A stretch of DNA of 64,000 bases from positions 1 through 64,000 of the forward strand of contig CACHDI010000006.1 of assembly GCA_902578545.1 (NCBI GenBank). The letters are read 5' to 3'. Below are positions 39,381 to 63,914 of the stretch, piece after piece. This stretch comes from an uncultured Alphaproteobacteria bacterium. GTDB lineage: Bacteria; Pseudomonadota; Alphaproteobacteria; Rhodobacterales; Rhodobacteraceae. Position 1 is the first letter of the stretch, and every line of letters begins with the position of its first letter. The notes beneath the pieces were generated by a model that was given only the letters and a program-made list of their open reading frames with translations, was not told the DNA's origin and did not search any database. The translations under genes were made by a program, and so were the position numbers.

Positions 39381-39398
39381 TGTCAAATTTTTCTGACA
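39381..39398. promoter_or_regulatory. PpsR/CrtJ-type operator in the crtA-crtI promoter region
   Basis: TGTCA-N8-TGACA is a perfect TGT-N12-ACA palindrome with extended CA/TG symmetry, lying in the 102-bp divergent gap between crtA and crtI. It is the known target shape of the PpsR/CrtJ repressor, whose gene is in this window. Confidence 0.8.
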
Positions 39399-39413
39399 TG
39401 ATAAGTTTATTAC

Positions 39414-41015
39414 ATGTTAAAAAGATCTGACAATAGTGATTTTGACTTTCCAAAATCTTCTGAAACTTTATTAAAGAAAGCTATAGTTATCGGAGCTGGG
39501 TTTGGTGGATTAGCCGCAGCAATGCGATTGGGATCTAAAGGGTATAAAGTTTCTGTATTTGATAAATTGAATAGTCTTGGTGGTAGGGGTACTTCATTAA
39601 ATCAAAATGGATATCGATTTGATTTAGGTCCAACTATTGTAACGTTGCCAAATATGTTCAGATCTCTTTGGAATGATTGTGGTAGAGATTTTGATAAAGA
39701 TGTAAAGCTTAAACCTCTTGACCCTTTTTATAAAATTAAATTCCCAGACAATTCAGAATTTTTTGCCTCTAACGACTCCGACAAGATGAAAAAACAAATA
39801 AAGTCGTTATTTCCTAATGATCTAGGTGGTTATGAAAAATTTATGAGAGAATCAAAAATCAGATATGACATAGCCTTTTCAGATGAAAAAAGTATTGGAA
39901 GGGTATCAATGCATAAGCTTTGGGACACACTAAAAGTTCTTCCTTTATTTGGCTTGTTGAGAGCAGACAGATCAGTATATCAAATGGCTGCAGCGAGAGT
40001 AAAAGATTCTAGGCTTAGATTTGCATTAAGTTTTCATCCATTATTTGTTGGAGGTGATCCATTTAATGTAACATCCATGTGGGGATTAGTAAGTCATATT
40101 GAAAAAGTCTATGGAGTGCACTGCGCTATTGGAGGATTTAGTGCTATTGCTAAGGCTATGGGTAGGATAATTTTAGAACAGGGTGGTAGTATTCATTTAA
40201 ATTCTGAGGTTAAAGAAATAACTTATAATAGGAAAAATGTTACTGGAATTAAATTAAAAGATAATCGAAGTTTTGAAGCAAACATTATAATTTCCAATTC
40301 AGACCCATCATACACATATAACGAACTTTTAAAGAAAAAAGAAAAAAAAAGATGGACCCCAAAAAAATTGAAAAACAAAAAATGGTCAATGGGATTATTT
40401 GTTTGGCATTTTGGTACAAAAAATACAAAAAATATGTGGCCAGATGTTGGTCATCATACAATTTTACATGGGCCAAGATATTCAGGCCATGTGAAAGACA
40501 TCTTTATAAATGGTGTTTTGTCTGAAGATATGAGTCTTTATATTCATCGACCCTCTGTCACGGACCAAACATGTGCTCCTGAAAATTGTGATACTTTTTA
40601 TGTTTTGTCGTGCGTTCCACACTTAGGGCATTCTAATCCAGTAATATGGGAAAAAGAAAAAGAAAAATATTTAAAAAAAGTAGCACAATTTTTGGATAAT
40701 AGATTACTTCCAGGGTTTCAAAAAACAATAGTTGAAAGCCATGTAATGACTCCAAATGATTTTGGGAAAAATTATTTAAGCCCAATGGGCACAGGATTTT
40801 CAATTGAGCCTAGAATGTTTCAAAGCGCTTGGTTTAGGCCACATAATATATCTGAAGAAATTGAAGGACTTTATTTAGTTGGAGCTGGAACTCATCCTGG
40901 TCCTGGAGTTCCAGGTGTAATTGCCTCAGCTGAAATTATAGCTAAAGAAATTAAAGATGCTAAGCAATACCAAAAGGAAAAAAATAATTTTTATGAAAAA
41001 ATAGATGCAAGGTGA
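39414..41015 (+). CDS. crtI: phytoene desaturase (CrtI type)
   Basis: The 533-residue protein has the FAD loop VIGAGFGGLAAAMRL (26-40), FDKLNSLGGRGTS, GPTIVTLP and the C-terminal carotenoid desaturase signature YLVGAGTHPGPGVPGV. It converts phytoene to neurosporene or lycopene; purple-bacterial spheroidene-makers use a three-step enzyme, which sequence alone cannot confirm. crtB follows after 6 bp. Confidence 0.96.
   Translation: MLKRSDNSDFDFPKSSETLLKKAIVIGAGFGGLAAAMRLGSKGYKVSVFDKLNSLGGRGTSLNQNGYRFDLGPTIVTLPNMFRSLWNDCGRDFDKDVKLKPLDPFYKIKFPDNSEFFASNDSDKMKKQIKSLFPNDLGGYEKFMRESKIRYDIAFSDEKSIGRVSMHKLWDTLKVLPLFGLLRADRSVYQMAAARVKDSRLRFALSFHPLFVGGDPFNVTSMWGLVSHIEKVYGVHCAIGGFSAIAKAMGRIILEQGGSIHLNSEVKEITYNRKNVTGIKLKDNRSFEANIIISNSDPSYTYNELLKKKEKKRWTPKKLKNKKWSMGLFVWHFGTKNTKNMWPDVGHHTILHGPRYSGHVKDIFINGVLSEDMSLYIHRPSVTDQTCAPENCDTFYVLSCVPHLGHSNPVIWEKEKEKYLKKVAQFLDNRLLPGFQKTIVESHVMTPNDFGKNYLSPMGTGFSIEPRMFQSAWFRPHNISEEIEGLYLVGAGTHPGPGVPGVIASAEIIAKEIKDAKQYQKEKNNFYEKIDAR
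39415..39432. promoter_or_regulatory. second TGT-N12-ACA match overlapping the crtI start
   Basis: TGT at 39415-39417 and ACA at 39430-39432 are separated by 12 bp, 16 bp after the first palindrome and inside the first codons of crtI. The inner bases are less symmetric (TGTTA...TGACA), so it could be chance; PpsR sites often come in pairs, which is why it is listed. Confidence 0.4.
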
Positions 41016-44956: not shown

Positions 44957-44974
44957 TGTCAGTAAATATTTACA
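44957..44974. promoter_or_regulatory. PpsR/CrtJ-type operator, first of a tandem pair between crtD and crtE
   Basis: TGTCAGTAAATATTTACA is TGT-N12-ACA. With the second copy 6 bp further on, it fills the 99-bp divergent gap, and should control crtDC and crtEF together. Confidence 0.85.
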
Positions 44975-44980
44975 TACTTT

Positions 44981-44998
44981 TGTCAAAAAAAATAGACA
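44981..44998. promoter_or_regulatory. PpsR/CrtJ-type operator, second of a tandem pair between crtD and crtE
   Basis: TGTCAAAAAAAATAGACA is TGT-N12-ACA, starting 24 bp after the first site, so both lie on nearly the same DNA face, as needed for cooperative repressor binding. Confidence 0.82.
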
Positions 44999-45937: not shown

Positions 45938-47029
45938 ATGGACATTTTCTCCAATTGGTTGAATAATCTAGTATCAAAACCTTCTTTTCACACATTTATC
46001 AAAAAGATACCTATAATAAGACAGTTAGCTTTCAATGAAGGTGAAAAAATTTATGACCTGGTAGCTGGTTTTGTTTATTCGCAGATACTTTTAGCTTTTA
46101 TTGAATTGAGTTTAATCGATTTTTTTATTTCCGGTAGAAAAAAAATTGACGAGATATCTAAGTATACAGGGTTATCAAATAACAAATGTTTATTATTATG
46201 TAACGCTGCTACCTCTATTGGTTTACTAAAAAAGAGAAGAGACTCTACTTTCAAACTTACAAGACTTGGAGCTGCCATAAAGGGTGTAAGAGGATTAGAT
46301 AAGATGATTTTACATCATAAGATTTTTTATAGAGATCTTATTGACCCAGTAAAATTATTGAATGAAAATTTTGATACTGAATTAAGAAATTTTTGGAAAT
46401 ACGTTCCGTCTACTAAGAAAATAACTAAAGAAGAAGCCAAAAATTATTCTGAATTGATGGGAGTTTCACAATATATCGTAGCAGAAGAAACGCTAAATTT
46501 GGTAAAATTGAATGGTTTTCAAAAACTACTAGATGTTGGGGGTGGTAATGGTACTTTTATTTTGGAGGTAATGAAACTTTATCCAAATTTAACGTTAGGA
46601 GTTTTTGATTTACCAAGTGTTATTGAAGAAACCAAAATAAAAATTAGCCATCTTATTGATGTTTCTAGAATCAATTTAATAGCAGGAAATTTTATAAAAG
46701 ATGGATTGCCACACGGTTATGATATTATTTTTTTAAACAGAGTGTTGTATGATCATAATGACACAGTTGTCGAGATAATTTTAAATAAAATATATGATGC
46801 TTTAACTCCTAAAGGGCAATTAGTCATATCTGAACCTATGGCAGGTAATCATTATCCAACCCGAGCTGGAGATGCTTATTTTGGTTTTTATACTATGGCT
46901 ATGACTTCTGGGAAGCCTAGAAACAAGGAAGAACATTTCAAATTCTTGAAAAAAAATGGTTTTCGACACTTAAAACTTGTTTCAAGCCCTAATGATTTTA
47001 TTACTTCAGTAATAGTTGCAAAAAAATAA
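45938..47029 (+). CDS. crtF: demethylspheroidene O-methyltransferase
   Basis: The 363-residue protein has an N-terminal winged-helix dimerisation region and a class I SAM fold with LDVGGGNGTFIL at 198-209 and SEPMAGN near residue 305. It O-methylates the 1-hydroxy group, finishing spheroidene. Its place between crtE and bchC matches Rhodobacter. Confidence 0.95.
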   Translation: MDIFSNWLNNLVSKPSFHTFIKKIPIIRQLAFNEGEKIYDLVAGFVYSQILLAFIELSLIDFFISGRKKIDEISKYTGLSNNKCLLLCNAATSIGLLKKRRDSTFKLTRLGAAIKGVRGLDKMILHHKIFYRDLIDPVKLLNENFDTELRNFWKYVPSTKKITKEEAKNYSELMGVSQYIVAEETLNLVKLNGFQKLLDVGGGNGTFILEVMKLYPNLTLGVFDLPSVIEETKIKISHLIDVSRINLIAGNFIKDGLPHGYDIIFLNRVLYDHNDTVVEIILNKIYDALTPKGQLVISEPMAGNHYPTRAGDAYFGFYTMAMTSGKPRNKEEHFKFLKKNGFRHLKLVSSPNDFITSVIVAKK

Positions 47030-47050
47030 AATCAATAAATTGAAATTAAT

Positions 47051-47068
47051 TGTCAATATTTATTGACA
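47051..47068. promoter_or_regulatory. PpsR/CrtJ-type operator, first of a pair upstream of bchC
   Basis: TGTCAATATTTATTGACA is a near-perfect TGTCA...TGACA palindrome. Its right half forms a TTGACA -35 box at 47063-47068. Confidence 0.9.
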
Positions 47069-47090
47069 ATATAAACTGTCAGTATAAAAT
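47063..47090 (+). promoter_or_regulatory. sigma-70-like promoter of the bchC superoperon
   Basis: TTGACA (47063-47068), a 16-bp spacer, then TAAAAT (47085-47090). Both boxes are inside the two PpsR palindromes, so bound repressor would exclude RNA polymerase, as described for bchC of Rhodobacter capsulatus. Confidence 0.65.
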
Positions 47091-47094
47091 TACA
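47077..47094. promoter_or_regulatory. PpsR/CrtJ-type operator, second of a pair upstream of bchC
   Basis: TGTCAGTATAAAATTACA is TGT-N12-ACA, separated from the first site by exactly 8 bp, the spacing known from the R. capsulatus bchC promoter. Confidence 0.85.
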
Positions 47095-47136
47095 CTAGTT
47101 TTGCAAAATGAATCTTTTTAATTGAGGTTAAATATA

Positions 47137-48081
47137 TTGATTACAAAAGCTGTAGTTATGTCAAATCCTGGCAAATTGGCAATAGAATCTGTTGAGTTGA
47201 AGAAATGCCAAACTGAAGACGTCGTCGTAGATATTCATTATTCAGGGATTTCTACAGGGACAGAAAAATTATTTTGGAATGGCAAGATGCCAGCTTTTCC
47301 AGGAATGGGCTATCCATTGGTTCCAGGTTATGAGTCAACAGGTGAAGTGGTTCAGGCATCTAAAAGTTCTGGATTTAAAGAAGGAGATATTGTTTTTGTA
47401 CCTGGTGCTGATTGTTATTCCGGTTCTGTAAGGAGTCTATTTGGTGGTGCTGCAAAAAGAGTTATTTCGCCATCTAACAGGTTAATAAAGATTGACAGTA
47501 CCATGGGAGTAAACGGCGCACTTTTTGCCTTAGCTGCAACAGCCCGACATGCGATTGCCGGTTTTGGTAATAGAATGCCAGAAGTAATAGTAGGTCACGG
47601 TGTTTTAGGAAGGCTATTAGCTAGACTTGTTATACTTGCAGGAGAAAAACCTCCCATTGTTTGGGAAAAAAATATATTTAGGCATGCGGGTGCTAGAGAT
47701 TATGAAGTTGTATTACCTGAATTCGACAGCAGATCAGATTATGATTGTATTTATGATGTAAGTGGAGATTCTGATATACTAGATAGCCTGATTGGTAAGG
47801 TGAAAAAAGGTGGTGAGGTCGTAATGGCAGGCTTCTATCCTGAAAGAGTAAGTTTTGGATTTGCTCAAGCTTTTATCAAAGAAGTTTCAGTTAGGGTTTC
47901 GGCAGAATTTACACCTGAAGATGTAGCAACTACCAAGCTTCTTATAGAGGATGGATCATTATCATTTGATGGGCTTGTGAGCGATGTATTTCAAGTAAAC
48001 AAGGCGACTGAAGCATACAAAGTGGCATTTGAAAAGGCTGAATGTCTCAAAATGGTTCTAGATTGGAGAAATGCAGCATGA
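47137..48081 (+). CDS. bchC: bacteriochlorophyllide C-3(1) hydroxyethyl dehydrogenase
   Basis: The product has 314 residues from TTG 47137, placed 9 bp after GAGG. An upstream TTG at 47122 overlaps that Shine-Dalgarno. The start ITKAVVMSNPGKLAIES aligns with other BchC. It is an MDR-fold dehydrogenase with GTEKLFWNGKMP, GYPLVPGYESTG and VGHGVLGRLLARL. It oxidises the 3-hydroxyethyl group to 3-acetyl in bacteriochlorophyll a synthesis. It opens the bchCXYZ-puf operon and overlaps bchX by 4 bp. Confidence 0.94.
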   Translation: MITKAVVMSNPGKLAIESVELKKCQTEDVVVDIHYSGISTGTEKLFWNGKMPAFPGMGYPLVPGYESTGEVVQASKSSGFKEGDIVFVPGADCYSGSVRSLFGGAAKRVISPSNRLIKIDSTMGVNGALFALAATARHAIAGFGNRMPEVIVGHGVLGRLLARLVILAGEKPPIVWEKNIFRHAGARDYEVVLPEFDSRSDYDCIYDVSGDSDILDSLIGKVKKGGEVVMAGFYPERVSFGFAQAFIKEVSVRVSAEFTPEDVATTKLLIEDGSLSFDGLVSDVFQVNKATEAYKVAFEKAECLKMVLDWRNAA

Positions 48082-49103
48082 CAGTAGAAACAATAAATGT
48101 AAAAGGTAATGCTAATAAAGTTCTTGAAGAACATCATAGTAGGTTAAAATCAGAAGCTAAAGAAATTAATAATGAACTTCATACGGCTAAACCAAAGAAA
48201 AAGTGTCAGATAATTGCAATTTATGGCAAAGGTGGCATTGGTAAGTCTTTTACTTTAGCTAATTTAAGTTGCATGATGGCTGAACAAGGTAAGCGAGTAT
48301 TATTAATAGGTTGCGATCCAAAGTCAGATACTACATCTCTCCTTTTTGAAGGAAAAGCTTGCCCAACAATCATTGAAACATCCACTAAAAAGAAGCTTTC
48401 TGGAGAAGAAGTTGCCATAGGTGATGTTTGCTTCAAGAGAAATGGTGTATTTGCAATGGAATTAGGCGGTCCTGAAGTAGGAAGGGGATGTGGTGGTCGT
48501 GGTATTATTCATGGTTTTGAATTACTGGAAAAACTTGGTTTTCATGATTGGGATTTTGATTATGTATTACTAGACTTCCTTGGAGACGTCGTCTGTGGAG
48601 GCTTTGGTTTACCCATTGCAAGGGATATGGCGCAAAAAGTAATTGTAGTTGGATCTAATGACTTACAGTCACTATATGTTGCCAATAATGTTTGTTCTGC
48701 AGTTGAATATTTCCGAAAATTAGGTGGAAGTGTTGGTGTAGCTGGCATAGTTATCAATAGAGATGATGGAACTGGAGAGGCAAAGAAATTTGCTGAAAAA
48801 GTAGGAATTCCTGTACTCAGTACTATTCCTGCTGACGATGATATAAGAAGGAAATCTGCGATGTATCAAATTATTGGTACAAAGCAAAGCCAGTGGGGAA
48901 CTCTTTTTGAGACATTAGCTTCCAATGTAGCAGATGCTCCTCCTGTAAGACCAAAGACACTAAATCAAGACCAATTATTGGGATTATTTGATGGTGGTGA
49001 GACAGGAGCAGGTTTCACATTAGTGCCTGCAACTGATGCTGATATGCGCGGTAAATTTTCAAAACCAAAAAAATCTTTAGAAGTAATTTATGACAAAGTT
49101 TGA
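48078..49103 (+). CDS. bchX: chlorophyllide reductase iron protein (subunit X)
   Basis: The product has 341 residues from ATG 48078 (ATGA overlap with the bchC stop). It is a NifH-like ATPase with P-loop GKGGIGKS (50-57) and [4Fe-4S] ligands Cys138 (GRGCGG) and Cys173 (DVVCGG). It feeds electrons to BchYZ for reduction of the chlorin ring to bacteriochlorin, the step that separates bacteriochlorophyll a from chlorophyll. Confidence 0.96.
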   Translation: MTVETINVKGNANKVLEEHHSRLKSEAKEINNELHTAKPKKKCQIIAIYGKGGIGKSFTLANLSCMMAEQGKRVLLIGCDPKSDTTSLLFEGKACPTIIETSTKKKLSGEEVAIGDVCFKRNGVFAMELGGPEVGRGCGGRGIIHGFELLEKLGFHDWDFDYVLLDFLGDVVCGGFGLPIARDMAQKVIVVGSNDLQSLYVANNVCSAVEYFRKLGGSVGVAGIVINRDDGTGEAKKFAEKVGIPVLSTIPADDDIRRKSAMYQIIGTKQSQWGTLFETLASNVADAPPVRPKTLNQDQLLGLFDGGETGAGFTLVPATDADMRGKFSKPKKSLEVIYDKV

Positions 49104-49124
49104 GAGATAATCCAGGTTCTATTA

Positions 49125-50696
49125 ATGAGTACTGAAATAAAATATGATCAAACAAATGAGGTGAAATTGACTGAAGCAAGTCAAAATTCAATAGAAGATT
49201 TGGAGATACCCTCCAAGCCTGTTTCATCTGGGTGTCATTCAAAGGACAATAAAGAAAAGTCTATAAAGTCCTTAAATAGTAATAATGAAATATTAGACAA
49301 ATTTAGAAAAGATTATCCACTTGGGCCGCATGATAAACCGCAAAGTATGTGTCCAGCTTTTGGATCTTTACGTGTTGGCTTGAGAATGAGAAGAGTTGCT
49401 ACAATTTTATCAGGATCTGCATGTTGTGTTTATGGTTTAACTTTTGTTTCACATTTTTATGGAGCAAGAAGATCGGTGGGTTATGTTCCTTTTAGCTCAG
49501 AAACACTTGTATCTGGAAAATTATTTGAGGATATAAGAGATTCGGTTCATAAAACCGCTGATCCTTCAAAATATGACGCAATTATTGTAACAAATTTATG
49601 TGTCCCAACAGCATCTGGTGTTCCATTAAGGTTACTTCCAAAGGAAATAAATGGTGTAAGAATTATTGGTATTGATGTTCCTGGCTTTGGTGTCCCAACC
49701 CATGCAGAGGCAAAAGATGTTCTGGCAGGAGCTATGCTTAATTATGCTAGAAAAGAAGCAGAGAAAGGACCAGTTGCAACACCTCTTTCAGGAAAGTCTG
49801 ATAGACCAACTGTCGCTTTATTAGGTGAAATGTTTCCTGCTGATCCAATTGGAATAGGAGGAATATTATCTTATTTAGGTTTGGCAGCAGGTCCTGTTGT
49901 ACCATGTCGTGAATGGAGAGAACTATATGGTGCTTTGGATTGTTCATTAGTTTCAGCTATTCATCCCTTTTATACTGCTTCAATAAGAGAGTTTGAAGAA
50001 GCTGGAAGACCAATTTTAGGTTCAGCCCCAGTTGGAACTGAAGGAACTGATGACTGGATTCAATCAGTAGGAGAAATTTTAAACATTAAAAAGAATATGA
50101 TTTCAACATGTAAAAATGAAATTATACCAAAAATAAAAGAAGGTCTAAAATTAAATAAGATTAAAGGGACAATAACACTTTCTGGTTATGAAGGGTCTGA
50201 ATTACTTGTTGCGCGTCTTCTTACTGAAAGTGGAGCTAAGATACCTTATGTTGGAACGGCATGCCCAAAGACTAAATGGTCACAAAAAGACAAGGAATGG
50301 CTAGAGGCAAAGGGAACTATGGTTAAATTTAGAGCCAGTTTAGAAGACGATTGTGCCGCAGTTGAAGCAATCAAGCCGAATCTAGCGATTGGCACTACTC
50401 CTGTAGTCCAAAAAGGTAAAGAATTAGGAATACCTTCTTTATATTTTACAAATTTAATTTCAGCTCGTCCTTTAATGGGTGTTGCTGGAGCTGGAAGTCT
50501 AGCACAAGTAGTAAATGCAGCAATGAAAAATAAAAAAAGAATGGCAAATATGAAAAGCTTTTTTTCCGGAGTAGGGAAAGATGATACATCAGGAATTTGG
50601 GAAAAAAGTCCAAATTTAAAGCCTCAATTTCGGGAACATAATTTGAAAAAAATTGAAAAAAGAAAAAAAGCTGCAAAAGCAGCGGAGATGATTTAA
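49125..50696 (+). CDS. bchY: chlorophyllide reductase subunit Y
   Basis: The 523-residue NifD-like protein has cysteines in [11 protein letters not shown] and [10 protein letters not shown] and another in TNLCVPTAS, which supply cluster ligands. It forms the catalytic BchYZ heterotetramer with BchZ. A low-complexity charged N-terminal 60 residues precedes the conserved part. It shares one base with bchZ (TAATG). Confidence 0.95.
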
Positions 50697-52150
50697 TGCT
50701 AATTCAAGATCATGATAGAGCTGGTGGATATTGGGGGTCTGTATATGCTTTTTGTGCAATAAAAGGTCTCCAAGTTGTAATTGATGGACCTGTTGGATGT
50801 GAGAATTTACCCGTGACATCTGTTTTGCATTATACCGACGGATTACCACCTCATGAATTACCAATAGTAGTTACTGGATTAGCAGAAGAAGAGTTAGGAC
50901 GTGAAGGAACCGAAGGTTCTATGAAACGTGCATGGAAAACTTTAGATCCAGCATTGCCGTCTGTAGTTGTTACAGGATCAATTGCAGAGATGATTGGTGG
51001 TGGAGTAACTCCTGAGGGAACAACCATTCAAAGGTTTCTTCCTCGAACAATTGATGAAGATCAATGGCAGTCAGCTGACAGAGCCATGACATGGATTTTT
51101 ACTAATTTTGGACAAACAAAAGGTAGAATGCCTAAAGAAACTAAAAGAGAGGAGGGGTCAAAACCAAGAGTAAATATTTTAGGCCCCATGTATGGAACAT
51201 TTAATATGCCGTCTGATCTAGCTGAAATAAGAAGGTTAGTAGAGGGTATAGGAGCAGAAATAAATATGGTTTTTCCCCTAGGTAGTCACCTAGCTGATGC
51301 CAATAAATTAGTAAATGCAGATGTAAATGTTGTTTTATATAGAGAGTTTGGAAGAGGTTTGGCGGAAGTTCTTGATAAACCTTATCTACAAGCACCAATT
51401 GGAATAGACTCTACTACTAAATTTTTACGTAAATTAGGAGAATTATTAAAACTAGATCCCGAACCATTTATTGAGCAAGAAAAACATTCAACAATAAAAC
51501 CAGTTTGGGATTTATGGAGATCTGTAACTCAGGATTTTTTTGCAACTGCAAGCTTTGGAATAGTTGCAAATGAAACATATTCACGTGGAATTCGTAATTT
51601 TTTAGAAAACGATTTGGGATTACCTTGTAGTTTCGCAGTAGCAAGAATTTCAGGAAAAAAAACCAATAATGACGAAGTAAGATCATTAATAAGGGATAAA
51701 AGACCTTTAGTATTAATGGGGTCAATTAATGAAAAAATGTACTTGGCTGAATTAAAAAATGGTTTTGGTCCTAGCCCATCATTTATTCCTGCAAGTTTTC
51801 CAGGTGCTGCAATAAGAAGATCTACGGGAACACCAATGATGGGATATGCAGGAGCGACTTATTTGCTTCAGGAGGTATGTAATAGTTTATTTGATTCTCT
51901 TTTTCATATTCTGCCATTGGGGTCGGATATGGATGAAGTCGATGCGACACCTACAAATTTAAAGAGGGATTTTCCTTGGGATAAAGATGCTCAAGAATTT
52001 TTGGACAAAATTGTCCAAGAGCATCCAGTCATAACAAGAATATCAGCAGCAAAGAACTTAAGAGATGAAGCAGAAAGATCTGCTTTAGCGGAGGGTGACG
52101 AAAGAGTTGTTTTAGAAACAATAAAGAAAATAAGAAATAAAAAATTATAG
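50696..52150 (+). CDS. bchZ: chlorophyllide reductase subunit Z
   Basis: The 484-residue NifK-like partner of BchY has [13 protein letters not shown] with the cluster cysteine near residue 38, then [12 protein letters not shown] and the C-terminal protochlorophyllide-reductase-type domain (about 430-475). One base overlaps bchY. pufQ follows after 27 bp, giving the bch-puf superoperon. Confidence 0.96.
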
Positions 52151-52177
52151 TAAAAAAGGAAACGGGGAGAAAGAAAA

Positions 52178-52414
52178 ATGAAACAGTCAGCAGTTAGAGA
52201 TTTTAGTGTTTCAGAATATAGGAAAACTATAAAATTTGAGTATAGGGTTTATTTTGCGCTCATTTTTTTAATTTCAATTCCTCTAGCTACTTTTGCATGG
52301 ATAGCTTGCTTAACTATGAACATCTTTAAATTAAAGACTGTGCAAAATGAGGGCATTTTTAAAAGGGCATGGGGTCATGCGCAAGTAATAACCCCAATGA
52401 TATTTACCGCATGA
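52178..52414 (+). CDS. pufQ: PufQ, bacteriochlorophyll-synthesis-linked protein
   Basis: The 78-residue protein has one membrane helix (about 27-48) and ends GHAQVITPMIFTA, close to the ITPEIF ending of Rhodobacter PufQ; its place between bchZ and pufB is also the same. PufQ is thought to help deliver bacteriochlorophyll intermediates or assemble LH1. The Shine-Dalgarno GGGGAGAAAG precedes the ATG. Confidence 0.9.
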   Translation: MKQSAVRDFSVSEYRKTIKFEYRVYFALIFLISIPLATFAWIACLTMNIFKLKTVQNEGIFKRAWGHAQVITPMIFTA

Positions 52415-52428
52415 TTGTGGTTAACGAA

Positions 52429-52501
52429 ATTCGATGGCTTAGCTATCGAATAGTTCTGAGCCATGAGGGCTCAGAAAATCAACCCTACGAGAAATCGTGG
52501 G
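52429..52501 (+). promoter_or_regulatory. three consecutive RNA hairpins in the pufQ-pufB spacer
   Basis: Stem 1: ATTCGAT (52429-52435)/ATCGAAT (52445-52451). Stem 2: TTCTGAGCC (52454-52462)/GGCTCAGAA (52468-52476), 9 bp with a 5-nt loop. Stem 3: 52484-52490/52495-52501, 7 bp with one G-U and a GAAA tetraloop. They probably mark the processed 5' end of a stable pufBA message, as reported for Rhodobacter puf mRNA. Confidence 0.75.
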
Positions 52502-52531
52502 ATCAGTCGAAAACAATCCGGAGGATTAAAC

Positions 52532-52690
52532 ATGGCTGGAAATAACGACCTGTCATTATCAGGTTTAACAGAGGACCAAGCACAGGAACTTCATAGTGTT
52601 TATATGAGCGGTCTTTGGACATTCACACTAATGTGTGTTTTAGCTCATATTGCAACATGGATTTGGCGTCCTTGGTTCTATTTCAGTTAA
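52532..52690 (+). CDS. pufB: light-harvesting LH1 beta polypeptide
   Basis: The product has 52 residues from ATG 52532, preceded by CCGGAGGATTAAAC. An open frame extends to 52463 but crosses the hairpin leader and is not coding. It starts [18 protein letters not shown]; His39 in [11 protein letters not shown] is the bacteriochlorophyll ligand, and it ends RPWFYFS. It is an inner-membrane, single-helix antenna subunit around the reaction centre. Confidence 0.96.
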
Positions 52691-52701
52691 AGGAGAATTA
52701 A

Positions 52702-52860
52702 ATGAGTCAATTTTATAAAATATGGCTGATTTTTGACCCACGTAGAGTGTTCGTGGCTCAAGGCGTATTTCTCTTTTTATTAGCAGCGTTAATTCATTTA
52801 GTGCTGCTAAGCACAGAACACTTCAATTGGTTTGAGGCAGCAGCGAAGGCAGCAGGCTAA
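52702..52860 (+). CDS. pufA: light-harvesting LH1 alpha polypeptide
   Basis: The 52-residue protein begins [17 protein letters not shown]; His32 in [11 protein letters not shown] is the bacteriochlorophyll ligand, followed by the [10 protein letters not shown]-terminal segment. The ATG at 52702 has AGGAG at 52691-52695, 11 bp after pufB. It pairs with PufB to form the LH1 ring. The composition (GC about 40%) is well above the surrounding genes. Confidence 0.95.
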
Positions 52861-52874
52861 GCCAATTTAAAGTG

Positions 52875-52913
52875 GCCGTGGGCGGGCTCCCCCCCAAACA
52901 ACCCGCCTACGGC
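52875..52913 (+). promoter_or_regulatory. strong intercistronic hairpin between pufA and pufL
   Basis: A 12-bp GC-rich stem, GCCGTGGGCGGG (52875-52886) against CCCGCCTACGGC (52902-52913) with one G-U, has a 15-nt C-rich loop. It has no T tract, so it is an mRNA-stabilising or 3'-blocking hairpin rather than a plain terminator. In R. capsulatus the equivalent element keeps pufBA mRNA in excess over pufLM. Confidence 0.9.
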
Positions 52914-52978
52914 AAATCAAATGTAGAATTATTGGATGTAAATGAAAAAAATTAAGAATTTTAATAGGAGGTCGCGAG

Positions 52979-53869
52979 ATGGCATTACTCAGTTTTGAGA
53001 GAAAGTATCGTGTTCCCGGAGGCACCTTAATCGGAAGAGACTTATTTGATTTTTGGGTAGGTCCTTTTTATATTGGCTTTTTTGGTCTTATGACCATGTT
53101 TTTTGCCTCATTAGGTACTTTACTTATCTTATGGGGAGCCGCTTTACAGGGAACTTGGAATCCTTTCCTTATAAGTATTAATCCACCAGCCTTGGAGTAT
53201 GGGTTACAGTTTGCTCCATTGAGAGATGGAGGATTATGGCAAATAATTACTATTTGTGCACATGGTGCATTTATTGCGTGGTTATTAAGAGAAGTAGAAA
53301 TTTGTAGAAAATTAGGTATTGGATTTCACATACCAGTTGCATTTGGCGTTGCAATATTTGCATATACTTCGTTAGTTGTAATAAGGCCAGTGTTGATGGG
53401 TGCATGGGGACATGCATTTCCATACGGAATTTTTTCTCATCTAGATTGGGTTTCATACACAGGATACGCATATATTAATTTTCATTTTAATCCAGCACAT
53501 TGGGTTGCAATTACATTTTTCTTTACGACAACTCTTGCCCTTTCTCTTCATGGTGGGTTGATATTATCTGCAGCAAACCCCGAGAAAGGAAAGGAATCTA
53601 AAACACCAGATCATGAGGATACGTATTTCAGAGACTTTATAGGTTATTCAATTGGAACTTTAGGAATCCACAGAATAGGATTGTTACTAGCTTTAAATGC
53701 AGGATTTTGGTCAGCAGTATGTATATTGATTTCAGGTCCAGTATGGATATTTCCTGAGGGTTCTAGTTGGGTTGAGTGGTGGAATTGGTGGCCAAGATTG
53801 ACCACTTTCTCTGATGCTCAATATCAAGAAACAATGAACTTTATTAATAGTCTCGAATGGACGCAGTAG
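52979..53869 (+). CDS. pufL: photosynthetic reaction centre L subunit
   Basis: The 296-residue protein has five helices. Ligands fall at R. sphaeroides numbers +1: His154 (accessory BChl), His174 (special pair), His191 and His231 (non-heme Fe), and the QB-site acids Glu213 and Asp214. It therefore looks fully functional. The start at 52979 has AATAGGAGG 6 bp before it. pufM begins about 10 bp after its stop. Confidence 0.98.
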
Positions 53870-53879
53870 GAGGTTTATG

Positions 53880-54842
53880 ATGGCAGAATATCAAAATATT
53901 TTTACACAAGTCCAAGTAAAGGGTCCACCTGAAATGGGAATGGACGAGACTGGAGAATTATCAAGTGAAAGAACAAAAACAACTAGAAATAATACTTGGC
54001 TGGGTTATTTAGGTAATGCTCAGCTTGGTCCCATCCATTTGGGTATGTTTGGTGTTGTTTCGATATATTTGTTCTTTGTTTGGTTTTTTCTTGTTGGATT
54101 TGGAATGCTTCAACAAGTCAATTTTGACTTTGCTCTTTTTATAAGAACCTTATTTTGGTTATCACTTAATCCTCCACCAGAAGAGTATGGATTATCATTT
54201 CCACCAATAAACGATGGTGGATTGTATATGATAGCAAGTTTTTGTTTGCTATTTTCTGTACTTAGTTGGTGGATAAGGTCTTACTTAAGGGCTCATGAAT
54301 TAGGTATGGGAAAACATATTTGTTGGGCTTTTGCTGCTGCAATATGGTTGTTTTTGGTGATTGGATTATTTAGACCTATCGCAATGGGTTCATGGTCTGA
54401 AATGGTTCCCTACGGTATTTTTCCTCATCTAATTTGGACTAATAATTTGTCTGTTGCTTGGGGTAATCTATTTTATAATCCTTTTCATGCTTTATGTATT
54501 GTTTTTTTGTATGGATCAGCCCTATTATTTGCAATGCATGGTGCCACAATATTAGCAACATCCAGACTTGGTGGAGATCGTGAGTTAGAGCAAATTTATG
54601 ATCGAGGAACTGCATCTGAAAGAGCAGCGTTGTTCTGGAGGTGGACAATGGGGTTTAATGCATCAATGGAAGGAATTCATCGTTGGGCCTGGTGGTTTGC
54701 AGTACTTGTGCCTATTACTGGAGGAATTGGAATTCTACTTACCGGTACTGTTGTGGATGACTGGCGATATTGGGCAATAGAACACGGTTTTGCTACTGAA
54801 ATAGAATATTCAGTACCTGAATCTACATTGTTAGGAGATTAA
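53880..54842 (+). CDS. pufM: photosynthetic reaction centre M subunit
   Basis: The product has 320 residues from ATG 53880 (spacing 6 from AGGAGG; the ATG at 53877 is only 3 away). It begins MAEYQNIF like the R. sphaeroides protein. Pigment and iron ligands match at +1: His183, His203, His220, Glu235, His267; the special tyrosine is Tyr211. The C-terminal tail after the last helix runs some 13 residues longer than in R. sphaeroides. Confidence 0.98.
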
Positions 54843-54844
54843 TC

Positions 54845-55600
54845 ATGGAACCATTTTTTTCAAATTTTGATATAGCTCAACTAAGTCTTTACCTATTCTG
54901 GGCTTTTTTCATTGGTTTAGTGATTTATCTTCAAAGGGAAAACATGCGAGAGGGATACCCATTAGAGAATGAGCAATCTAATACTGCCCATAATCAAGGA
55001 ATGTATCCTGTACCAACACCTAAAACGTTTAAGCTCATGCATGGACGGGGAGAAGTAAGTGTTCCCAATAATGTAGGAGAAACGAGAAAATTAAAGCTCG
55101 AAATTAAAAATGTCGCAAATGGATCACCATTATTTCCAAGTGGTGATCCAATGGATGACGGCTTAGGGGCTGCTGCATGGACAGAAAGAAGAGATGTACC
55201 AGAACTGGATGGTCATGGAAAACCAAAGATCAGACCTATGAGTAGTCTAAAAGGTTTTGAGGTTTCTGCAGGAAGAGACCCTAGAGGAATGGACGTGGTC
55301 TCGGCAGATAAAGTCGTGGTTGGACAGGTAATAGATATGTGGATTGATGTGCCTGAGCAGTTGGTAAGATATCTAGAAATAGAATTAAAAGATAAATCAA
55401 AACGGTTATTACCTATGCCTTTATCAAAAATAAATAGTAAGTCTGTAGATGTTCATTCTTTATATGGGAAACATTTTAAAAAAGTTCCTTCTATAAAAAA
55501 ACCAAAAGAGGTAACTATGCTTGAAGAAGAAAAAGTAAGTGCTTATTACACTGGTGGAAAACTTTATGCTTCTTATGATAGATTAGTCTCACCAGTTTAG
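54845..55600 (+). CDS. puhA: photosynthetic reaction centre H subunit
   Basis: The 251-residue protein has one N-terminal helix (about 12-30), YLQRENMREGYPLE after it, then the cytoplasmic PRC-barrel with GDPMDDGLG, RDVPELDGHG and EVTMLEEEKV, all close to R. sphaeroides H. It starts 2 bp after the pufM stop. In most purple bacteria puhA is in a separate bchFNBHLM-lhaA-puhA unit and pufX or pufC follows pufM, so the location is unusual. Confidence 0.97.
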   Translation: MEPFFSNFDIAQLSLYLFWAFFIGLVIYLQRENMREGYPLENEQSNTAHNQGMYPVPTPKTFKLMHGRGEVSVPNNVGETRKLKLEIKNVANGSPLFPSGDPMDDGLGAAAWTERRDVPELDGHGKPKIRPMSSLKGFEVSAGRDPRGMDVVSADKVVVGQVIDMWIDVPEQLVRYLEIELKDKSKRLLPMPLSKINSKSVDVHSLYGKHFKKVPSIKKPKEVTMLEEEKVSAYYTGGKLYASYDRLVSPV

Positions 55601-55610
55601 ACTATTGAAA

Positions 55611-55643
55611 ATAATAGGAGAGAAAATATATCTCTCCTATTAT
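55611..55643 (+). promoter_or_regulatory. 13-bp hairpin between puhA and dxs
   Basis: ATAATAGGAGAGA (55611-55623) pairs perfectly with TCTCTCCTATTAT (55631-55643) across a 7-nt loop. The following bases are CAAAAGGGGG, not a T tract, so it is better read as an mRNA-stability or processing element protecting the puf-puhA message than as a terminator. It ends 15 bp before the dxs start. Confidence 0.8.
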
Positions 55644-55657
55644 CAAAAGGGGGAAAA

Positions 55658-57580
55658 ATGTCAGAAACAAAGATATTAGACACTGTTAATTTTCCATCAG
55701 ATTTAAAAAAATTATCTGATTTTGAACTTAAAAAATTGGCTAACGAGTTAAGGCAAGAGACTATCTCAATTGTATCTAAAACAGGTGGACATCTAGGTTC
55801 AAGCCTAGGGGTCGTAGAGTTAACCGTTGCCATACATTCTGTATTTAATACTCCATTTGATAAATTAATATGGGATGTAAGTCATCAATGTTATCCTCAT
55901 AAAATCTTAACTGGTAGAAGACAAAGTATGATTACACTAAGACAAGACAAAGGTTTATCAGGTTTTACAAAGAGATCTGAAAGTGAGTTTGACCCATTTG
56001 GAGCAGCTCATTCTTCAACATCTATTTCTGCAGCATTAGGATTTACTGTGGCTCGAGATTTAGGGTCAGGTGTGGGAGACTCTATTGCAGTGATAGGTGA
56101 TGGTTCAATAAGTGCAGGAATGGCATATGAAGGTTTAAATAATGCTGGTTCCGAAGGACGTAGGCTATTTGTGATATTAAACGATAATGAAATGTCAATA
56201 GCACCTCCAGCTGGTGCAATGTCAAAATATTTATCAAGTTTATATGCAAATAATGAATTTTATAGTCTAACTCAACTAGCCGAGGGATTAGCAAAAAATC
56301 TACCTGGTCCATTACAAGAAGGTGCTAGACGTGCAAAAAGTATAATTACAGGTCTTGCATCTGGTGGTACTTTCTTTGAAGAATTAGGATTTTCCTATCT
56401 TGGTCCTATAAATGGTCATGATTTAGATCAATTGTTACCTGTATTAAGATCAGTAAAGGCGCGAGCAAAAGGGCCTATTTTGATTCATTGTGTTACTAAA
56501 AAAGGAAAGGGCTATTACCCAGCAGAAAGTTCTGCTGATAAATATCATGGAGTATCAAAATTTGATATAATTTCTGGAGAACAAAGTAAATCCAAGCCAA
56601 ACGCACCTTCCTACACTTCTGTATTTGGAAAAGCTTTAGTTAGTGAAGCTTCTAGAGATCATCGTATTGTAGCAGTGACAGCTGCCATGCCTTCTGGTAC
56701 GGGGATAAATCTTATGCAAAAGGAATTTCCCCAAAGGACATTTGATGTTGGTATTGCAGAGCAGCACGCTGTTACATTTGCTGGTGGAATGGCTGCTGGG
56801 GGCTTAAAGCCATTTTGTGCAATATATTCTACTTTTTTACAAAGAGGATATGATCAAATTGTTCATGATATAGCTTTACAAGGATTACCAGTTAGGTTTG
56901 CAATAGATAGAGCGGGTTTAGTTGGTGCAGATGGAGCTACTCACGCAGGTTCTTACGACATAGCATATTTGTCAAACTTACCTGGTTTTGTTGTTATGGC
57001 TGCTGCAGATGAGTTAGAATTAATGAATATGGTTGCAACTGCAGCATCTTATAATGATGGTCCAATAGCATTTAGATATCCAAGAGGAGAAGGAGTAGGG
57101 ATAGACCTTCCAGAAAAAGGGACCCCCCTAGAAATTGGAAAAGGTCGCATCATAAAGGATGGAAAAAGTGGGGTTGCAGTTCTAAATTTTGGAGCCCATT
57201 TGAAAGAAGTAAAAGAAGCTTCTGAAGTTTTACTTCAAGCTGGTATTGATATAACAGTAGCTGATGCTAGGTTCGCTAAACCACTTGATGAAGAACTTGT
57301 AACTAATTTAGCTAAAAATCACTCTGTTCTAATTTCTATTGAAGAAGGAGCTATTGGAGGTTTTGGCTCTCATTTATCAAATTATTTAAGTGAATCTGGA
57401 TTATTAGATGATAACTTGAAATTTAGGGCAATGTTTCTTTGTGATAAATTTATAGATCAAGGAAAACCTGAAAACATGTATAAAGAAGCTGGTTTAGGTG
57501 TTCAGGATATAATAGATAAAGTTAAGAAATTAATGGGTGTATCTGTAGTTAAATTTAAAAACAACAATCTGTCAGCTTAA
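55658..57580 (+). CDS. dxs: 1-deoxy-D-xylulose-5-phosphate synthase
   Basis: The 640-residue thiamine-diphosphate enzyme has the [12 protein letters not shown] region, the ThDP motif [34 protein letters not shown] and the C-terminal transketolase domain. It makes the first intermediate of the MEP isoprenoid pathway, feeding carotenoid and phytyl/geranylgeranyl supply. Placement at the end of the puf operon, behind a GGGGG ribosome site, suggests light- and oxygen-coordinated expression. Confidence 0.96.
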
Positions 57581-61536: not shown

Positions 61537-62928
61537 TTATAAAAGATTATGTTTCCTAAGTTTAACATAAAGACTTTGACGAGATAGGTGGAGCATTTCA
61601 GCAGTAGCCACTCTATTATTTTTAGTCATTTCTAGAGCAGTTTCTATACAAATTTTTTCGACAATATCACTTGTATCTGCAACTAAATCTTTTAAAGGAG
61701 CAGAACCTACTAATTTCGTAATTTTTCTTGTTGCTTTTTCGCTGACTACATTATCACTAGTATTTATCTCATTTTCATTTGGTTTGTAAGAAATTATGAA
61801 ACAAATATATTCTCCAAATTTTGTTGAAGTATAAGTGCTAGAAATTTCAATATCAGTTCTAATGTCAAAATTAGATATGAGTTGTGTTTTAAAAGGCATG
61901 GTAGAGCCATTCTCTAAAGTAGCTTCTATTAGTACTTTGAGGTCTACTATTCCTCTTGCTAAAAATTCAGAAAATGGTCTATCAATTATTAATTGTTGAT
62001 TTTCGCTTTTGCATAAAGAGAGAAAGCTGTCATTCACATATTTTATAATTCCCATTTTATTTGTAAAAACAATTCCATCACGTGTTTTTTCATAAAACTT
62101 ATTCAAAATATTAATAAATTCATTTTCTGATGAAGCTTCTTTTAATGTTTTCTCTAACCTTACTATAATACATATTTCGTTCTCTGCTCTAAACACAGAC
62201 GAGTGTAAGATAATATTATTTTTATTCTTTTCATTTATGTAAACAAAATCAGACTTATTAATTTTGTCAGATTTTAATTTTTCGATAAATTCTTTTTCAT
62301 TTTCATAGTTAAAAATTTTAGAAAGATTTATTCCAATTAATTTTTCTTTTTTTTGTTTTAGTAGTTTTGCAGCAGGATTATTTAAGTCCAAAATATTACC
62401 CAAGGATGCATCCAATATGACTAAGGCTTCTTCAGAAAACTCTATTAAAGCTTTATACTTAGTTTCAAAACTTCTAAATTTAGAATATTCTCTTTCTAAT
62501 GCTAATTGTGAATTTACAAACCTCTTTTGTACTTCAGCAATTTGAGATAAATCATTTCCGATGAGTATTATATTTTTTTTATCTTCAGTTTTGAAACCTT
62601 TATACCTTACAGGAAATTCACCTGTATCTGTAGATACATGATTTAATTCAAACCCTTTTGTAGAAAGTATATTTATTTCAGTAAGGGAAGTAATCTGCAA
62701 ATCAAGCTTTTCTTTACTTTCAATTGTTAAAAAATCAAAAATATTCTTATTTAACCAACTGTTTAGATTTTTATTTATATTTTTGTTAGGTAAATTAATT
62801 TTTAAAATTTTACCTTTTAGATCTATTAAGAGGTTTATGTCACCAATATTAGATATAATTCTTGAATACATTTCATTTGTAGAAACTAAAGTAGTATTTG
62901 TACCGTGATGTTTTAATTTATTAGCCAC
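61537..62928 (-). CDS. ppsR: PpsR/CrtJ transcriptional repressor of photosynthesis genes
   Basis: The 463-residue protein has an N-terminal region, two PAS domains (about 155-260 and 275-385), and a Fis-type helix-turn-helix at 425-463 (NRVATAEMLHLSRQSLYVKL). Cys253 and Cys427 lie where R. sphaeroides PpsR has its redox pair Cys251/Cys424. It is a repressor that binds TGT-N12-ACA under oxygen, and such sites occur in this window at crtA/I, crtD/E, bchC and ppaA. It lies 25 bp after ppaA. Confidence 0.95.
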   Translation of the reverse strand: MANKLKHHGTNTTLVSTNEMYSRIISNIGDINLLIDLKGKILKINLPNKNINKNLNSWLNKNIFDFLTIESKEKLDLQITSLTEINILSTKGFELNHVSTDTGEFPVRYKGFKTEDKKNIILIGNDLSQIAEVQKRFVNSQLALEREYSKFRSFETKYKALIEFSEEALVILDASLGNILDLNNPAAKLLKQKKEKLIGINLSKIFNYENEKEFIEKLKSDKINKSDFVYINEKNKNNIILHSSVFRAENEICIIVRLEKTLKEASSENEFINILNKFYEKTRDGIVFTNKMGIIKYVNDSFLSLCKSENQQLIIDRPFSEFLARGIVDLKVLIEATLENGSTMPFKTQLISNFDIRTDIEISSTYTSTKFGEYICFIISYKPNENEINTSDNVVSEKATRKITKLVGSAPLKDLVADTSDIVEKICIETALEMTKNNRVATAEMLHLSRQSLYVKLRKHNLL

Positions 62929-62953: not shown

Positions 62954-63730
62954 TTATATAATTTTTAAAGAATTTTTATTGTATTTTAGATTTAGTTCGA
63001 TCAAGACTTGTTCTATATTTTGTGAAACAAGATCAACTTTAAGTTTTTCATTGGTTTTTTTGTAGGTATTAACAAGGTTTCCACCTAACACAACAGGTAC
63101 CTTTTTTTCTATAATATTTCCTATTTGGATAGTTAATTTGTTAATATCATCAACCATGAAATTATTTGCAGAAGATATTCCAATAAATTCATAATGTTCG
63201 TTATAAAGTAAGTCCTCTAATTCTTCATTTTTATAGTCTAATGTTAAAAATGGTTTAGTACCAAAGCCTCGAAGTTTTCTTGTAGCTGCAATTCCACCAT
63301 ATGTATGATGCTCCCCTGTTGGGATAAGCATAAGTATTTTCGTATTGGAGGATTTAACTTTTAAATTTGCTAAATATTGATGTTCCATTTTTGAATTTAA
63401 AAACTGTATTTTGCCTAAAGCAATTGTTACTTCTGAAAAAGTTATCTCATCAGAAACCCATTGGTCTCCAAGTCTTTTAGCAATTATTGGGAAGTATGAG
63501 TCTAAAATAAGTTCAATAGAACGACCATAATCTAAAAATTTTTTTATCAATTTTTCATTAGATTTGAGAGACTTAGATTTAATAAAAGTAAAGAGTTTAT
63601 CTAGATCAGACTCAAAGTTAATAGCTGAAGTAGTTTTATTTTTTTCTATTAATTTTTCTAAGGTTTCTAAAACTAGTGGATTTACAATTGATATGTTATT
63701 TAAATTTTTTAACTCTTCAGTTGAGTTCAT
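62954..63730 (-). CDS. ppaA: PpaA/AerR cobalamin-binding antirepressor
   Basis: The 258-residue protein has a helical segment with RLGDQWVSDEITFSEVT (about 86-102), then a B12-binding (SCHIC) domain with the GEHHTYGG motif at 139-146 whose histidine would coordinate cobalamin. AerR/PpaA reads light through B12 and modulates PpsR/CrtJ. Its pairing with ppsR matches Rhodobacter. It is first gene of the minus-strand unit ending at idi. Confidence 0.92.
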   Translation of the reverse strand: MNSTEELKNLNNISIVNPLVLETLEKLIEKNKTTSAINFESDLDKLFTFIKSKSLKSNEKLIKKFLDYGRSIELILDSYFPIIAKRLGDQWVSDEITFSEVTIALGKIQFLNSKMEHQYLANLKVKSSNTKILMLIPTGEHHTYGGIAATRKLRGFGTKPFLTLDYKNEELEDLLYNEHYEFIGISSANNFMVDDINKLTIQIGNIIEKKVPVVLGGNLVNTYKKTNEKLKVDLVSQNIEQVLIELNLKYNKNSLKII

Positions 63731-63874: not shown

Positions 63875-63902
63875 ATTATGTTTAATTTTAAAAAAATGTC
63901 AA
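63875..63902 (-). promoter_or_regulatory. sigma-70-like promoter for ppaA-ppsR-bchG-bchP-idi
   Basis: On the minus strand TTGACA (63902-63897), a 16-bp spacer and CATAAT (63880-63875). The -35 box is half of the PpsR palindrome, suggesting autoregulation. The 5' leader before ppaA would be about 140 nt. Confidence 0.55.
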
Positions 63903-63914
63903 AGATTATTGACA
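63897..63914. promoter_or_regulatory. PpsR/CrtJ-type operator upstream of ppaA
   Basis: TGTCAAAGATTATTGACA is TGTCA-N8-TGACA, a perfect match to TGT-N12-ACA with extended symmetry. It offers TTGACA boxes facing both ways, so it may control both ppaA and a divergent gene outside the window. Confidence 0.85.

Follow-up and report, generated by a model that had tools for sequence, protein, structure and literature searches.

Two predicted PpsR/CrtJ operators 8 bp apart over the predicted bchC promoter of an AT-rich member of the Rhodobacteraceae, and their conservation in photosynthetic proteobacteria

At the bchC promoter of R. capsulatus, the repressor CrtJ footprints on two sites separated by 8 bp, one at -47 to -30 and the other at -21 to -4; C249 and C420 are given as its redox cysteines (PMC5362033, accessible part of the text). 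In R. sphaeroides, a ChIP-seq peak of PpsR has been placed at bchCXYZ-pufQ (PMC4344238, accessible part). PpsR of Rubrivivax showed redox-dependent, more sigmoidal binding to a pair of sites 9 bp apart but not to a pair 8 bp apart (PMC4452267, accessible part). Since binding by the Rubrivivax protein looks more cooperative at 9 than at 8 bp, spacing alone cannot decide whether a pair of operators is bound cooperatively. No cross-genome survey of the gap at bchC stood out in a literature search that covered main texts, few subscription papers among them.

Does the R. capsulatus arrangement extend to an AT-rich genome? We analysed a 64,000-nucleotide stretch of DNA, hereafter the window, from an uncultured alphaproteobacterium of the Rhodobacteraceae. 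With a probability of roughly 93%, we interpret the element at 47051-47094 as a Rhodobacteraceae bchC promoter of the sigma-70 type, TTGACA-N16-TAAAAT, set within two PpsR/CrtJ operators, such that PpsR would repress it and relief of repression would allow transcription of bchCXYZ, with read-through into puf, puhA and dxs. The element comprises the following features.

47051..47068, + strand: upper predicted PpsR palindrome, TGTCAATATTTATTGACA, ending on the right in the predicted -35 box TTGACA at 47063-47068 (sequence, pattern scan, conserved columns)
47069..47076, + strand: 8-bp gap between the palindromes, ATATAAAC (sequence, pattern scan)
47077..47094, + strand: lower predicted PpsR palindrome, TGTCAGTATAAAATTACA, which holds the -10 box TAAAAT at 47085-47090 (sequence, pattern scan)
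47098, + strand: predicted transcription start, from the R. capsulatus register (-4 corresponds to 47094)
47124..47127, + strand: probable Shine-Dalgarno motif GAGG (sequence)
47137..48081, + strand: bchC (TIGR01202, 402 bits), with a probable TTG start at 47137

An initial annotation of this DNA had described two 18-bp TGT-N12-ACA sites separated by 8 bp, the upper one containing TTGACA and the lower one TAAAAT, had likened them to the R. capsulatus bchC promoter, and had predicted cooperative repression of the whole bchCXYZ-puf-puhA-dxs unit. Sequence and pattern scan confirm sites and boxes to the base, and gap and register are indeed those of R. capsulatus. The upper site lies over the -35 box and the lower over the -10 box, as predicted from the sequence, with a spacer of 16 between the boxes. 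In a promoter scan of 46900-55800, these boxes were the best of 19 promoter-like sites, with 11 of 12 letters; shuffled sequences held 28.4 such sites, more than the real region does. The promoter occupies the 107-bp space between crtF, which ends at 47029, and bchC, and a start at 47098 would give a leader of 39 nt. By simple arithmetic, the centres of the palindromes are 26 bp apart. With 10.5 bp to a turn, this is roughly 2.5 turns, which on straight B-DNA would place the two on opposite faces of the helix. No third palindrome immediately precedes the pair in the window; the next exact site is found 287 bp upstream, inside crtF. As for the coding sequence, the listed bchC frame starts with TTG at 47122, but most homologue alignments begin at its residue 4-10. 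The start is therefore probably TTG 47137 (residue 6), preceded by GAGG, and TTG 47122 is unlikely to serve.

Could chance in AT-rich DNA account for the palindromes, or are they targets of a different regulator that recognises a TGT/ACA or TTGACA-like motif? The genome of the window (1.957 Mb, 83% complete) holds 335 single TGT-N12-ACA sites, compared with 336 for a reversed-motif control, and the window itself holds 18, against 14.0 in shuffles. Single sites thus occur at the background rate, which fits such an explanation, and are uninformative. The pair statistics contradict it. From the single-site rate, the whole genome should contain only 0.057 exact pairs at gap 8, and such a pair would arise between crtF and bchC, a space of 107 bp, with a probability of 1.9e-6. 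Close pairs were sought genome-wide as TGTC-N11-ACA, 2-20 bp and TGT-N12-ACA, a pattern to which a pair is visible only if one of its ends reads TGTC. It returned three distinct places, all of them in this photosynthesis cluster (crtA/crtI, crtD/crtE and bchC), and the reversed control gave one match genome-wide. Half-sites outside the promoter hexamers are moreover conserved in GC-rich and AT-rich loci alike (see below). Chance in AT-rich DNA is ruled out by the pair counts together with this conservation, and we consider the broader explanation, with another regulator included, extremely improbable. The other predicted PpsR sites of the cluster are these.

44957..44998: second predicted PpsR pair, crtD/crtE intergenic region, gap 6 (pattern scan, genome pair search)
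39381..39432: third predicted PpsR pair, crtA/crtI, gap 16, with its second site overlapping the listed crtI start
63897..63914: single predicted PpsR site, aerR-bchF intergenic region (pattern scan)

A further exact site in the aerR-bchF region lies past the end of the window (L124:1057-1074), 142 bp from the site at 63897-63914.

How widely is the layout shared? Our family sample consisted of 295 genomes from 294 genera, so that nearly every genus is represented by a single species; it was taken from a larger group and includes the genome of the window. BchC was found in 120 of the 295, and the exact pair at gap 8 in 99 of these 120 upstream regions, that of the window among them. To these we added 80 named alpha-, beta- and gammaproteobacterial loci, which are the best 80 of a longer list and overlap the family sample, and 26 loci from a sample spanning the class, where BchC is present in 27 of 385 genomes. 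The resulting 226 loci were reduced to 213 distinct ones by removal of 12 duplicate upstream regions and a short contig end (L123); a partial second BchC match (L234) was never entered. The counts that follow come from related genomes and hence are not independent. The pair at gap 8 is exact in 143 of the 213 loci and one letter off in 45, so that 188 retain at least 11 of the 12 letters. Among the remaining 25, 17 have 10 letters at this gap, four have 9, two have 8 and two (L157 and L178) have 6, which amounts to no trace. Second in frequency is a gap of 6, at which 30 loci show 11 of 12 letters. TTGACA is in place in 178 of the 188 loci, and TAnnnT in 162. The gap-8 layout is thus common to most of the photosynthetic proteobacteria examined.

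To weigh conservation of the promoter alone as the source of this pattern, we considered the 177 of 213 loci that are selected solely by the hexamers TTGACA-N16-TAnnnT. Outside the hexamers, the upper left TGT is present in 162 of these, the lower left TGT in 150 and the lower right ACA in 159, compared with a trinucleotide background of 1.5% and with 0-7 occurrences at shifted positions. That the outer half-sites are kept in loci chosen by their hexamers rules out conservation of the promoter alone and shows that the operators themselves are conserved.

Persistence of the layout in AT-rich DNA, as had been claimed for the window, also holds for most of the AT-rich loci sampled. Besides the window, 11 loci have a G+C content of at most 0.47, a value that refers to the fetched stretches, some of only 700 bases; seven of them carry the exact pair, one is a letter off and three are without it. 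Because AT-rich relatives with another layout are found among the 25 divergent loci, the gap-8 arrangement is not indispensable. In three such relatives (L039, L127 and L130), the lower bchC operator has been lost, and the remaining pair has a gap of 5-6 with TTGACA in its second site. Relative to the projected bchC start, this pair stands at about -200 (L127:9229-9270; about -205 to -164 in L130 and L039), and beyond it lies a free TTTAAT, the presumed -10 box. The genome with the altered promoter of L039 (G172), unlike the other 28 of 29 searched, yielded no PpsR match; it is 91% complete and the contig breaks off shortly past bchC, so that the absence may be an assembly gap and loss of PpsR there cannot be inferred.

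Why should the two operators be 8 bp apart? One explanation, compatible with our main reading and to which we assign even odds, is that the distance is set by the promoter and not by contacts between PpsR molecules, PpsR itself tolerating or preferring 5-7 bp. Operators that each cover part of a promoter whose spacer is 16 bp must lie 8 bp apart, and a conserved gap of 8 then says little about cooperativity. Spacings at places where no promoter imposes them speak for this explanation. A third site, sometimes with a fourth, lies within 60 bp upstream of the bchC pair in 35 of the 188 loci (for example L013, L030, L051 and L057). No promoter constrains its position, and it lies mostly 6-7 bp from the pair, or else 14-18 bp: the gap is 4-7 in 25 of the 35, 10 in two and 14-18 in eight. 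Adjacent pairs upstream of crtE, surveyed in 70 loci, show gaps of 6 (9 pairs), 7 (12), 8 (6) and 13 (7), and the window's own crtE pair has a gap of 6. Outside bchC, the 80 named loci hold 50 pairs at gaps of 0-30, the commonest being 6 (10 pairs), 7 (15), 8 (7) and 13 (7); three control motifs, which have fewer sites, gave 1, 1 and 0 pairs. The three AT-rich relatives that lack the lower site, with their gap of 5-6, fall in line. Several observations point the other way. Gap 8 also occurs in the six crtE pairs just mentioned, and L038, L057 and L121 carry three consecutive bchC sites at gap 8, cases that stand outside the 35 counted above. In addition, CrtJ of R. capsulatus is reported, in the title of Ponnampalam et al. 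(1998), to interact cooperatively, here on the 8-bp bchC pair. Gaps vary where the promoter does not constrain them, and on this evidence the 8 bp at bchC would reflect the promoter inside the operators. The comparison separates a spacing that is probably promoter-fixed (8 bp at bchC) from unconstrained spacings (mostly 5-7 bp), a contrast that amounts to a testable statement on how PpsR dimers meet on DNA.

Downstream of bchC, the window contains a series of genes on the same strand.

48042..52150, + strand: bchX, bchY, bchZ
52178..54842, + strand: pufQ, pufB, pufA, pufL, pufM; PufQ and two antenna proteins of the LHC family were identified, with pufB and pufA told apart by their order
54845..55600, + strand: puhA (TIGR01150, 328 bits)
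55658..57580, + strand: dxs

On the main reading, PpsR of the window would bind both palindromes at bchC and, once bound, would deny RNA polymerase access to the -35 and -10 boxes. Its relief would permit transcription of bchCXYZ, and read-through would extend to the puf genes, puhA and dxs. How far might this control reach? Adjacent genes from bchC to bchZ overlap or almost abut, and their co-transcription is likely. The series continues with pufQ 27 bp after bchZ, puhA 2 bp after pufM and dxs 57 bp after puhA, and all terminator-like sites on the + strand of 46900-55800 are intragenic; it is possible that puf, puhA and dxs are co-transcribed with bchCXYZ. A shorter reach, in which PpsR controls bchCXYZ while puf and puhA are expressed mainly from a RegA/PrrA-type promoter of their own upstream of pufQ, as in R. 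capsulatus, falls only a little short of an even chance. An internal puf promoter is known in R. capsulatus as part of its superoperon structure, and the gaps between pufQ and pufB (117 bp) and between pufA and pufL (118 bp) leave room for promoters or processing. Against such a division stand the overlapping or nearly abutting genes from bchC to bchZ, and neither an exact PpsR site nor a strong sigma-70-like promoter on the + strand was seen near pufQ, although RegA-type promoters are invisible to the scan. The pattern scan recovered no exact PpsR site between 47094 and 61550. By eye, we also spotted inverted repeats at 52415-52531 (pufQ-pufB) and, G+C-rich, at 52861-52978 (pufA-pufL), which resemble the known stabilising hairpins of puf mRNA.

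The position of puhA directly after pufM is unusual among the loci examined. It is the only puhA match in its genome and lies between pufM and dxs. Further along the contig, the usual place of puhA is empty, for the end of the presumed lhaA at L124:11049 is followed by the start of puhB at 11060; this lhaA, named by position, is without an NCBIfam match at 1e-30. Of the 295 family genomes, 121 encode puhA, and in the best 29 loci from the 120 other genomes the gene is flanked by lhaA and puhB every time, including in the genome that provides the best match for both BchC and PuhA (G281). A search of 81 bchC loci for PuhA (1e-8) found none, 59 of the 81 showing pufM with at least 1 kb beyond it, and no relatives of the window's PuhA were found in viral contigs. 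In a literature search for a puf-puhA arrangement, the accessible parts of the texts gave only the usual lhaA-puhABC order; related layouts may, reportedly, be described by Yutin and Beja (2005). The one genus mate searched (G090, 97% complete) has no match for bchC or puhA, so the genus may have seen a gain or a loss of phototrophy.

The presumed repressor is encoded in the window, next to a second gene of interest.

61537..62928, - strand: ppsR, presumed repressor of the bchC promoter (TIGR02040, 323.6 bits, cut-off 275.4), with PAS domains and a Fis-type helix-turn-helix (HTH_8)
62954..63730, - strand: gene beside ppsR, presumably aerR/ppaA-like, with weak matches to the B12-binding family PF02310 at 21 bits (cut-off 32.1) and to CarH at 24 bits, both below cut-off

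We take the second gene to be aerR/ppaA-like from its position next to ppsR, a known arrangement. Compared with solved structures, the window's PpsR matched PpsR entries and nothing else, the best being 4hh2, PpsR of R. sphaeroides. PpsR was matched in 28 of the 29 phototrophic relatives searched, in 27 of them above the cut-off. For the alignment, relatives were selected by the string RQSLY.KL in the helix-turn-helix, which for this reason is itself no evidence, and one locus without the string (L263) was left out. Identity between the window's protein and 27 relatives is 29-37% over the whole length, whereas the final 46 residues contain 30-36 identical positions. The DNA-binding domain is thus conserved, and this, the gap shared with R. 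capsulatus and the conservation of both palindromes support the reading of the element as a PpsR/CrtJ-repressed bchC promoter.

The redox cysteines have fared unequally. The cysteine of the helix-turn-helix region is present, as C427 in the window's PpsR and in 28 of 28 aligned sequences. The first redox cysteine is replaced by V256; this position is Cys in 25 of the 28, Val in two and Ala in one, and the window's protein has a cysteine, C253, three residues before it. V256 and C427 were matched to C249 and C420 by alignment and by the R. sphaeroides numbering, in which the two cysteines are C251 and C424. Given V256 and the spacing result from Rubrivivax, cooperative, oxygen-dependent repression at the window's bchC is plausible, and sequence alone does not suffice to predict it. 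It has also been tempting to connect the two peculiarities of this locus: an AT-rich lineage of Rhodobacteraceae would have moved puhA behind pufM, the bchC promoter with any puf promoter would govern the three reaction-centre subunits, LH1, bchCXYZ and dxs, and a repressor with altered redox cysteines might answer to light/B12 or another cue and not to a disulphide of the C249-C420 type. We consider this scenario rather unlikely as a whole. Outside the window, the genome also codes for one protein with a BLUF domain (G000:C9:63074-63337, open frame of 158 aa), a possible second light input.

How does the locus compare with systems already described? Tandem PpsR sites are known in Congregibacter litoralis, which, unlike the source of the window, is a gammaproteobacterium (PMC2654016, accessible part). 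In Dinoroseobacter shibae, two PpsR motifs lie over the -35 and -10 regions, as in the window, but the gene is bchF (PMC10890935, accessible part). The R. sphaeroides motif TGTCCAATAAAGTTGACA resembles the window's upper site, and the order of genes from bchC to puf is shared; binding was measured in R. sphaeroides and one motif is listed, whereas the sites of the window are predicted from sequence (PMC4344238, accessible part). In R. capsulatus, the promoter that drives bchC likewise has two TGT-N12-ACA sites at gap 8, the upper over -35 and the lower over -10 (PMC5362033, accessible part). Unlike R. capsulatus, the window is AT-rich, includes puhA in the downstream unit and has Val in place of the first redox cysteine. 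Its bchC promoter nevertheless belongs to a well-known class, and most of the sampled loci from photosynthetic proteobacteria, several with a G+C content of about 35-47% among them, preserve almost every base of the promoter-operator design established in R. capsulatus.
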